This document shows, in pieces, positions 16,827-53,299 of a stretch of 64,000 nt of DNA. The DNA is from Sulfurovum sp. Lineage in GTDB: Bacteria > Campylobacterota > Campylobacteria > Campylobacterales > Sulfurovaceae. The notes under the pieces were generated by a model, which saw only the letters and a list, made by a program, of their open reading frames with translations, did no database searches and was not told the origin of the DNA. The position numbers were made by a program, and so were the translations under genes. Each line of letters begins with the position of its first letter. The first letter of the stretch is position 1. The DNA lies in contig NVUY01000002.1 of NCBI GenBank assembly GCA_002733215.1, forward strand, positions 2,264 to 66,263, written 5' to 3'.

Positions 16827-16975
16827 TGAACCTTAAATTCATATTTTTTACTAAAAAACTTCTTAATTCATTTTATTTTTAGTTTAATTGTACTAAAGTA
16901 TTATCAACAGGGTTGTTACCACTATTTTGGACTATAAACTTATTATAAATATAATATTACCTATAACCCTACATT

Positions 16976-17050
16976 AAACATAGCTAAACTCATTGTGAAG
17001 TGAGGACAGAAAACCATGGGTCTCATGAAGATCGCCAGGTTGCAAACTGC
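16976..17050 (+). promoter_or_regulatory. Candidate c-di-GMP-I (GEMM-I) riboswitch #1
   Basis: AGCTAAAC-TCATT-GTGA(GNRA)-AGTGA-GGACAGAAAACCA-TGG-G-TCT-catga-AGA-TCG-CCA-GGTTGC; TATAAT -10-like hexamer at 16950-16955. Confidence 0.8.
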
Positions 17051-47442: not shown

Positions 47443-48669
47443 ATGGCAATAACGGAACTAAATGTAAACAGCGGAAATACGACACAAGCAGTAGAGATAG
47501 AGAACAATACTACCCTCCCCCTGAACATGATGGAGGGACTCGATATGGGCCTGCCTGAAAAGATACAAGAGCTACTCTCACCCGTATATGAAACCTTTCC
47601 TTTTCTAGCCAACACTTTTTTAGATATCCCATTGGCAAATCTTATGGCTGCCACTTTGGTATTTTTTATCTTTCTGGGCTTACGTCATCTTTTTACAACC
47701 ATTGTCACGGTTTCTCTTCAAAAACTTGCACAAAAAACAAAAACTTATTATGACAACAGAATCATCTCTGCACTCAAAGGACCCTTAAGTTTCGCTTTTA
47801 TCATCATAGGTCTGCATATCTTTTTTATACTCATTTTCAAAGAGACAGAGACGATCAAGAACATCCTTAATACGCTGGTGATTTATACGGTTTTTTGGGC
47901 TATTCTTTCTATTTCCGAAGCACTTCGCGAATTCATCTACTCTGCGACCGGAAAATTTAATGCTGAGCTTTCCAAAGAGATAGGTAACTTTGTACTTGCT
48001 ATTTGGAAAATACTCATATCAGGCATAGGTTTGGGTGCCATGCTTCAGGTTTGGGGTATCAATGTCACTGCACTTGTTGCTTCACTGGGTATCGGTGGTC
48101 TTGCTTTTGCTTTGGCGGCCAAAGATACCGCAGCCAATCTTTTTGGATCTTTTTCGCTGCTTGCAGACAAATCCATACGCATAGGAGAGTGGATCAAAGT
48201 CAATGGGGTGGAAGGTACAGTAGAGAACATCGGTATGAGAACCACCAAAATACGTTCTTTTCAAAAATCACTCATTACCGTTCCCAATCATATCGTCGCA
48301 AATCACCCTATAGAGAACTTTTCACGCAGAGGGATCAGACGTATCAAAATGCATATAGGGTTAACCTACGCTACAAACAGTGAGCAGATCATTAAGATCA
48401 TGGAAGAGTTAAAAGAAATGCTGAAAGGGCATGAGGGTATTTCACAAAGCGATTCACTTATGGTGAACTTTGATACTTTTGGAGATTCTTCACTGAATAT
48501 TTTCATCTATACTTTTACAAAAACTGCCAACTGGGAAAAATATCTGGACATCAGAGAGAATGTGAACCTCGCAATAATGAAGATAATAGAAGAGAACGGC
48601 TCATCTTTTGCCTTTCCATCACAATCTATTTATGTGGAACAGCTGCCAGTAATCTCCAATAAGCTATAG
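47443..48669 (+). CDS. MscS-family mechanosensitive ion channel
   Basis: LVASLGIGGLAFALAAKDTAANLFGSFSLLADKSIRIGEWIKVNGVEGTVENIGMRTTKIRSF. Confidence 0.95.
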   Translation: MAITELNVNSGNTTQAVEIENNTTLPLNMMEGLDMGLPEKIQELLSPVYETFPFLANTFLDIPLANLMAATLVFFIFLGLRHLFTTIVTVSLQKLAQKTKTYYDNRIISALKGPLSFAFIIIGLHIFFILIFKETETIKNILNTLVIYTVFWAILSISEALREFIYSATGKFNAELSKEIGNFVLAIWKILISGIGLGAMLQVWGINVTALVASLGIGGLAFALAAKDTAANLFGSFSLLADKSIRIGEWIKVNGVEGTVENIGMRTTKIRSFQKSLITVPNHIVANHPIENFSRRGIRRIKMHIGLTYATNSEQIIKIMEELKEMLKGHEGISQSDSLMVNFDTFGDSSLNIFIYTFTKTANWEKYLDIRENVNLAIMKIIEENGSSFAFPSQSIYVEQLPVISNKL

Positions 48670-48742
48670 GGTGGTGCACTTGTGCCCACCAAATAATCAA
48701 ATAATATATTTTTTTAAAGGTGGGCACAAGTGCACCACCCTA
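48667..48742. repeat. Perfect 24-bp inverted repeat
   Basis: TAGGGTGGTGCACTTGTGCCCACC ... GGTGGGCACAAGTGCACCACCCTA. Confidence 0.95.
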
Positions 48743-51298: not shown

Positions 51299-51784
51299 CT
51301 ATATATCATCTAAGGCTGCTTCTATAGCCATACCTATCTCATCAGTCACTTCTTCATCCGGTACTTCAGGATCAGAAGCCGTATCAACAGCAGGTTTTAC
51401 TTCTTCTACCTCCACTACAACTTCTTCTTTTTCCGGTTCAGCATAGTTTTCCAGATTTTCCATATAAGAAGATTTTAATTTGTCTTCAACCGCATCACCA
51501 AGTGCATCCCTGCTCAACTCAGACTTAACCACAACCGTATTGGCACGACTCTCTTTTGTTGCATCCACTTTCACATCCACATCTTCATAACCTTCAAGAT
51601 TTTGGAGATACTCTGTCGTATTTGCTTTCCTTGGTGCTTTTTTCTTCTGTGATTGTTGATACTCAACCAGCTCTTCCATCATCTCTTCGTCGGCTATCAT
51701 ACTGTATTGTACGATCCAATAGATGATCGATACCGTTAATAGTCCTACAAGTAATATTGCAAAACTTTCTAATAAATTTTTCAT
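51299..51784 (-). CDS. Membrane-anchored hypothetical acidic protein
   Basis: MKNLLESFAILLVGLLTVSIIYWIVQYSMIADEEMMEELVEYQQSQKKKAPR; start at 51784 avoids overlap with the upstream gene. Confidence 0.65.
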   Translation of the reverse strand: MKNLLESFAILLVGLLTVSIIYWIVQYSMIADEEMMEELVEYQQSQKKKAPRKANTTEYLQNLEGYEDVDVKVDATKESRANTVVVKSELSRDALGDAVEDKLKSSYMENLENYAEPEKEEVVVEVEEVKPAVDTASDPEVPDEEVTDEIGMAIEAALDDI

Positions 51785-51798
51785 TTTTTCACCCTCGT

Positions 51799-52410
51799 TT
51801 AGTTTGTCACGGTCGTAAAGCCCAAGATCTTCCACATTTGGAAACCACCACGATAATAGTACATTTTATCTGCCGGATATCCAAGCGCTAAAAAGACTTT
51901 AATGAATTCTGATGATTTATCACACCATAATCCATTACAGTAAAAAGCAACTTCCATGACTTTAGAGGTATCCAAAGAACCATCCGCCAATCTTTTTGCA
52001 CCCAGTACTTTTAGTATTTTTTCTACTTTGGCCTTATTGTCTTTGACTTTTGCCGGTATATTGACCGCAGAAGGAATAGACTCTTTTTGATACGCTGTTT
52101 TGGGTCTCAAGTCAACCAGAAGACCTTTTTTCTTATTTCCTTTGGTTTTCATAAATTTAAGTAATTCCACCTCAGCGATCGTTTGAATGTCTTTATGCAT
52201 TTTGATAGGCTGAATATCTTTACCTGGTCTGTAAACACGTGCATACTCTCCTGTGAGTTTATGTTTCGTATCTTGTATGCGATGTACTTTCACCGCTTTT
52301 CCTTTATGATACACATAAATAGACGCCATATCCGGTGTTATTTTAACTTTATCATATTTACCGGCTGCTGCGCTGACTACACATAATACTATGAATGCTA
52401 TGATTTTCAT
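51799..52410 (-). CDS. Exported rhodanese-like protein (1)
   Basis: Signal peptide; VDLRPKTAYQKESIPSAVNIPAKV; VAFYCNGLWCDKSSEFIKVFLALGYPADKMYYYRGGFQMWKILG. Confidence 0.88.
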   Translation of the reverse strand: MKIIAFIVLCVVSAAAGKYDKVKITPDMASIYVYHKGKAVKVHRIQDTKHKLTGEYARVYRPGKDIQPIKMHKDIQTIAEVELLKFMKTKGNKKKGLLVDLRPKTAYQKESIPSAVNIPAKVKDNKAKVEKILKVLGAKRLADGSLDTSKVMEVAFYCNGLWCDKSSEFIKVFLALGYPADKMYYYRGGFQMWKILGFTTVTN

Positions 52411-53024
52411 TTTGTCTCCTTAGGCACGATCGTTGTCAATCCCAGTAATTGCCATGCCTGCATACCACCACGGTAGTATTTCATTTTGGATTTTGGATAT
52501 CCTATTTCTATCAAGGCATTGATCGCTGTAGGCGACTGTCCGCACCATGCACCGTTACAATATAAAAGTATAGTTTTGGCATTGGAAAAGTTCCATTTTC
52601 CGCTTTTAGTGTATGCTGCCCCTAAGTCTTTAAGTATCTTTTCACGCTCAGTTGTTTCAGACAAGAAAAGTTTAAAAGGAATATTCACCGCAGAGGGTAT
52701 CGCCGACTTTGCATACCAGTTTCCCAGTCTTGCATCAATAAAAATCCCCTGCTTCTTAGAGATGAAGTCCAATACTTCCAATTCACCATAAGTTTCAATA
52801 CCTTCATCAACCGAAAAAGGTTCTATAAAGAATGGAGGAGAAGGTCGGGAAGTCAGTGCAAAGGTATTAGTAAGATAACCATTTGGATCCTGCGCTCGTT
52901 CAATTTTATATGTTTTTCCCTCTGCTTCAACTTTAACATAAGGCAACCCTTCAACGATCTCAACAACATTAGCATTGACCAGCAGCGTACTAAGTGCAAG
53001 AGCGGCCAAATAAGATAATCTCAT
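52407..53024 (-). CDS. Exported rhodanese-like protein (2)
   Basis: IDARLGNWYAKSAIPSAVNIPFKLF; ILLYCNGAWCGQSPTAINALIEIGYPKSKMKYYRGGMQAWQLLGLTT. Confidence 0.88.
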   Translation of the reverse strand: MRLSYLAALALSTLLVNANVVEIVEGLPYVKVEAEGKTYKIERAQDPNGYLTNTFALTSRPSPPFFIEPFSVDEGIETYGELEVLDFISKKQGIFIDARLGNWYAKSAIPSAVNIPFKLFLSETTEREKILKDLGAAYTKSGKWNFSNAKTILLYCNGAWCGQSPTAINALIEIGYPKSKMKYYRGGMQAWQLLGLTTIVPKETK

Positions 53025-53110
53025 TTCATAACTCCTTTATTTCTTCTCTATAATAGTTTTGATTTTAAGTGTTAGTCATACGAATGGAGACCTTTTAGCA
53101 CTGTACATCT

Positions 53111-53190
53111 ATGGTAGTCTGGCGAACTCATACTAAGATGATGAGTCCCATGACTTTCCGTACTTATGTCACAACAAGTTAGGCTTTTTC
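53111..53190 (-). promoter_or_regulatory. Candidate c-di-GMP-I (GEMM-I) riboswitch #3, divergent variant
   Basis: Minus strand: AAAAAGCCTAACTTGTT-GTGA-CATAAGTACGGAAAGTCA-TGG-G-ACTCAT-catcttagt-ATGAGT-TCG-CCA-GACTACC; TATACT -10-like at 53196-53201 (-). Confidence 0.72.
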
Positions 53191-53299
53191 TATACAGTAT
53201 AACCGTATAAAATATTCTATCACAGTTAAGTTTATATTCACAGGTGTTTTTTTAAAATAATTAAAATTAATGAATAATGGGTAAAAATATCAAAAAAGT

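Follow-up and report, generated by a model that had tools for sequence, protein, structure and literature searches.

A conserved c-di-GMP-I riboswitch aptamer precedes an operon of exported rhodanese-domain proteins in Sulfurovum and its relatives

Among the described RNAs with a fold related to that considered here, the 3',3'-cGAMP (GEMM-Ib, A20-type) riboswitches of Geobacter carry an A at position 20, and the Rfam family RF03167 (c-di-GMP-I-GGC), of the same clan and architecture, has a G in its model at the position equivalent to A47; the name "GGC" may be read, from the consensus of this model, as G20/G47/C92. The Vc2 riboswitch of Vibrio cholerae (RF01051) shares with the RNA described below a two-stem aptamer with a GNRA-capped P2, P3, the nucleotides G20, A47 and C92, and the pair C44-G83, and has a P1 whose counterpart in this RNA is weak beside the pocket. 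The three nucleotides have been reported as ligand contacts and C44-G83 as a universal inter-helical pair (PMC4744006); Vc2 is also the precedent for a P1-driven translational OFF switch, and GEMM-I switches are known in both ON and OFF forms (PMC9262584). The control mode proposed in the present study is the one reported for Vc2, whereas the differences from it are a C-G pair at 21-46, an AU-rich P1 that would be rivalled by a probable 5'-terminal hairpin, and a periplasmic rhodanese target. Concerning the target, the proteins found here have an exported rhodanese domain like PspE and the PQQ-associated CXXCW proteins, which are single-domain periplasmic rhodaneses, and show weak NCBIfam similarity to both, but they score far under the cut-offs of those families. 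Compared with single-domain periplasmic rhodaneses, among which we take Wolinella Sud to be comparable, the proteins of the present locus have a CNGxWC loop, and their two genes stand in tandem beside that of a membrane partner.

The stretch analysed (hereafter, the window) comprises 64,000 nucleotides of a Sulfurovum sp. contig (NVUY01000002.1, assembly GCA_002733215.1). The first-pass annotation of this DNA had proposed a divergent c-di-GMP-I riboswitch upstream of a two-rhodanese operon and recommended a search with RF01051. The sequence that it quoted was found on the minus strand, and the search placed a c-di-GMP-I (GEMM-I) aptamer at 53193-53109 with 51.6 bits (E 3.4e-9 per genome), well over the curated gathering cut-off of 35 bits, so the call was borne out. 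At the same interval, RF03167 was the top model by E-value in an all-Rfam scan at a relaxed threshold, although its score of 45.4 bits (E 1.9e-7 for the 64 kb searched) lay under its own cut-off of 59 bits. Judged by sequence, structure and conservation, the aptamer belongs genuinely to the c-di-GMP-I class; the match is far above chance, and a chance origin of the motif is ruled out. An operon of three genes follows 85 nt downstream of the aptamer.

The two other aptamer candidates from the same annotation also proved to be real matches. The first (16974-17048, plus strand) precedes a PAS-like gene, and the second (29879-30121, plus strand), whose P3 loop is enlarged by an insertion of 172 nt, precedes a gene for an exported protein. 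Within 1 kb of this second aptamer, RNA domains of a group II intron (RF02005 and RF00029) were matched at 28461-29124 on the minus strand. Elsewhere in the window, a long near-perfect inverted repeat with arms of about 30 bp (48667-48742), which gave a spurious mir-H11 match, is perhaps the terminator of the gene at 47443-48669.

Positions in the aptamer were assigned via the cmscan alignment and by counting along Vc2. In Vc2 numbering, all the ligand contacts are canonical (G20 at 53184, A47 at 53157 and C92 at 53114), as is, by alignment, the inter-helical pair C44-G83 (C at 53160, G at 53123), and the three contacts are canonical in the aligned orthologs as well. A variant of the GGC or the cGAMP type is disfavoured by the A, not G, found at the A47 position and by the G, not A, found at position 20; accordingly, membership in RF03167 was rejected on the score below its cut-off and on the A at 53157, and assignment to the A20-type GEMM riboswitches on the G at 53184. 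The pair adjacent to the pocket, C21 (53183) with G46 (53158), is inverted relative to the G-C of the Rfam consensus. The P2 hairpin (53163-53178, minus strand), delineated from the sequence, the cmscan alignment and ortholog covariation, has a U.C closing pair and bears the GNRA cap noticed earlier, a GUGA tetraloop at 53172-53169, which is predicted to dock to a receptor in P3 as in the c-di-GMP-I class. The P3 hairpin (53116-53155, minus strand) has the outer pairs GUC:GAC against gCc:gGc in the consensus, and so the compensatory nature of this replacement, already suggested from the sequence, was confirmed. The one feature of the window copy that is truly weak is P1 beside the pocket, where the only pair in register is a G-C; most orthologs have a P1 of the UAUUG:CAAUA type. 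In the constrained fold of the window leader a 9-bp outer P1 is predicted instead, between a 5' strand UACUGUAUA (53191-53199, minus strand) and a 3' strand UGUACAGUG (53099-53107, minus strand); the latter, which also forms the 5' arm of a hairpin, H1, corresponds to GUAUARGUG in the ortholog alignment.

The genes downstream were as anticipated, with one addition. Rhodanese 1 (52407-53024, minus strand; 205 aa) has a signal-peptide-like start and a CNGAWC active-site loop, and rhodanese 2 (51799-52410, minus strand; 203 aa) has a similar signal-peptide-like start and a CNGLWC loop; the two genes overlap by four bases, the start of the second lying over the stop of the first. They are followed by a conserved third gene (51299-51784, minus strand) for a small membrane-anchored protein with one membrane segment, which begins with MKNLLES as in orthologs. 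This gene follows the rhodanese pair in nearly all of the orthologs read, which suggests the start at 51784. The product of the third gene gave no family match, none of the three proteins could be named precisely from a family model, and a sequence search for PDB relatives of rhodanese 1 returned none at E values up to 0.001. The rhodanese domains, together with the sulfur-oxidising host, suggest that the operon serves periplasmic polysulfide or sulfane-sulfur handling.

The link between aptamer and operon was examined in the 30 sequences of the family that match rhodanese 1 best, the window copy included, since orthologous operons without the leader had been named as the case that would speak against it. 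A leader match to RF01051 or RF03167 at or above the cut-off was found in 14 of these 30, among them one from another genus (L051) and two whose proteins have 67% (L042) and 65% (L049) identity. Three more leaders were recognisable by eye (L030, with an insertion in P2, L039 and L046), which brings the number to 17/30; the remaining 13 are without the aptamer, and in one of them (L029) it has been deleted behind a kept promoter region. When 16 leaders were aligned, pairing held in 87.9% of the cells, and 14 of the 24 pairs are changed on both sides. The covariation score was 0.427 against 0.229 for shuffled alignments, none of 500 of which reached it, and controls with the structure slid along the alignment gave at most 0.163. 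Taken together, the pairing, the two-sided changes and the covariation identify the leader as a maintained RNA, and a conserved, covarying c-di-GMP-I aptamer is linked to the rhodanese operon in two genera. In four of the leaders (L044-L047) the second P1 pair has changed from U-A to G-C. The same four have a P3 that is a single long stem and appears to be devoid of the usual tetraloop-receptor part, with G20, A47 and C92 kept. The idea that the rhodanese link reaches beyond Sulfurovaceae was rejected, since the aptamers read in a neighbouring family precede other genes.

The host assembly, a Sulfurovum-like Campylobacterota MAG, contains 16 aptamers of the c-di-GMP-I clan, and close relatives of the rhodanese were found in Sulfurovum MAGs. 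With about 20 GGDEF and 14 full EAL matches, the assembly has c-di-GMP signalling. Judging from the translations, the other aptamers of this genome mostly precede genes for exported, surface or PAS-domain proteins. Two of them stand in tandem before a lipoprotein-like gene (G000:C2:9007-9221; L003 and L001), and an identical aptamer and leader precede two near-identical genes for secreted hydrolase-like proteins (G000:C12:4733-4807 and C34:870-944; L008 and L009), which may mean either that the riboswitch was duplicated together with its gene or that the assembly contains the same unit twice. Matches to RF01051 occurred in 107 of the 176 genomes of the family, with up to 21 per genome, and in 25 of the 299 genomes of the phylum sample.

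With regard to function, we consider it rather probable that this riboswitch, which would lie at the very 5' end of the mRNA, binds c-di-GMP and acts as a translational OFF switch for the rhodaneses, both binding and direction being deduced from its class and from the leaders of its relatives. Without ligand, the 5'-terminal hairpin (P0, see below) would hold the 5' strand of P1, and the post-aptamer segment GUAUARGUG would pair with an anti-Shine-Dalgarno sequence, leaving the ribosome site free. When c-di-GMP is bound, P1 would close and extend into the GUAUARGUG segment, and the freed anti-Shine-Dalgarno would mask the Shine-Dalgarno, so that the rhodaneses would not be made; high c-di-GMP, as in the sessile state, would thereby turn down periplasmic sulfane-sulfur handling. 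In the window, the first rhodanese gene has its Shine-Dalgarno, AAGGAG, at 53032-53037 (minus strand), and a candidate anti-Shine-Dalgarno, UAACACUU, was picked by eye at 53067-53074 (minus strand), with a rival CUCC at 53089-53086.

This mode was assessed by folding 14 leaders with either P0 or P1 enforced, with 60 dinucleotide-shuffled linker sets as controls; thermodynamic folding is rough for such AU-rich leaders. P1 formation lowered the predicted Shine-Dalgarno exposure by a mean of 0.19 over the 14 leaders, against -0.03 in the shuffled sets, whose maximum among the 60 was 0.12, a comparison that overstates independence because the ortholog leaders are related and are not independent samples. 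Complements to the Shine-Dalgarno are strong and significant in L039, L042 and L044-L047. The window's own leader was negative in the test, with a difference of -0.12, and its Shine-Dalgarno:anti-Shine-Dalgarno complementarity is not significant (p = 0.37); its direction of control is thus taken over from its relatives.

The same c-di-GMP-I riboswitch could also work as an ON switch or through transcriptional control by intrinsic or Rho-dependent termination, a reading that we hold to be a good deal less probable, although it is the most serious alternative. It is favoured by the precedents for GEMM-I switches of both directions (PMC9262584), by the constrained folds of the window leader, in which P1 does not mask the Shine-Dalgarno, and by a terminator-like hairpin with a U-run in one ortholog, AAAAGAGUAUA...UAUACUUUUU (L027), so that some relatives may exert control at transcription. 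However, intrinsic termination was rejected for the window leader, as no hairpin there is followed by a U-run, and both the family-level masking, which exceeded all the shuffles, and the strong Shine-Dalgarno complements of several clades point to the translational mode.

The translational OFF model invokes P0, a 17-nt inverted repeat, ATACGGT-TAT-ACTGTAT (53192-53208, minus strand), that was recognised in the leader alignment as a probable 5'-terminal RNA hairpin. Upstream of it lies a probable extended -10 element, TGTGATAGAAT (53214-53224, minus strand), whose conservation in the alignment suggests a promoter role and places the likely transcription start near P0. Flanked by the -10 element on one side and the aptamer on the other, such a repeat would also suit an operator in the DNA, bound by a repressor or an activator, in which case a protein would exert control beside the aptamer and P0 would not be a switching strand; the retention of P0 in some orthologs without the aptamer, e.g., L038, fits this reading too. 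Nevertheless, we regard an operator as unlikely. With its 3' half P0 reaches into the 5' strand of P1, as expected of a switching strand, and the seven pairs of P0 hold in 99% of the cells in the 16 leaders through variants that preserve RNA pairing via G.U and break the symmetry of the DNA. These changes (G.U/A-U type) are one-sided only, and therefore the covariation of P0 is supportive rather than proof.

A further possibility, raised by the first-pass annotation as a "degenerate sensor", is that the window aptamer is what is left of a c-di-GMP riboswitch that is decaying and has lost its function. The poor pairing of P1 beside the pocket and the U.C closing mismatch in P2 could be understood in this way, as could the absence of the aptamer from L029, L033, L041 and other orthologs, but we find decay improbable, because every ligand contact is retained, the window score exceeds those of most orthologs, P3 carries compensatory changes, and a 9-bp outer P1 is possible. 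The AGTACG that had been taken for a degraded GGGACG is the 3' end of P2 with the joining segment, where the orthologs vary too. The features earlier regarded as decay are accordingly accounted for by the compensatory change in P3, the variable 3' end of P2 and the inverted 21-46 pair; the changes are mostly lineage-wide in Campylobacterales, and, with the contacts canonical and the helices covarying, the notion of a degenerate sensor is not supported.

The inverted pair deserves separate consideration, as the C-G arrangement was seen in nearly all the aptamers that were inspected, whether from this genome, its family or its order: at 53183/53158 in the window and among L001-L016 and L056-L106, where L080 and L093 keep G-C. 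It is conceivable, but we would give it little credence, that this inversion and the 5'-terminal hairpin rivalling P1 define a functionally distinct c-di-GMP-I subclass, with shifted affinity or ligand preference, that couples the choice between sessile and motile life to sulfur metabolism in the periplasm of Sulfurovaceae. Weakest of all is the altered ligand specificity suggested by the earlier reading, whether for cGAMP, c-di-AMP or another cyclic dinucleotide, and, with it, an assignment to the RF03167 "GGC" variant. We consider this very improbable: it can draw on the E-value rank of RF03167 and on the inversion beside the pocket, but this inversion is common to nearly all aptamers examined in the order, the window and the aligned orthologs alike show canonical contacts, with A where the RF03167 consensus has G, and RF03167 remains below its cut-off whereas RF01051 is above.

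Among open-licence papers, judged by title and abstract, no link between a c-di-GMP riboswitch and a rhodanese was found, nor was any report on c-di-GMP riboswitches in Sulfurovum. The sensor class is thus a known one, and the conserved rhodanese target appears, as far as can be judged from this search, to be without an earlier report. For the biology of these bacteria, the aptamer as a c-di-GMP-I riboswitch of the rhodanese operon suggests that c-di-GMP may directly set the levels of exported sulfur-transfer proteins in sulfur-oxidising Campylobacterota, in a family that relies heavily on c-di-GMP-I switches with an inverted pair beside the ligand pocket.
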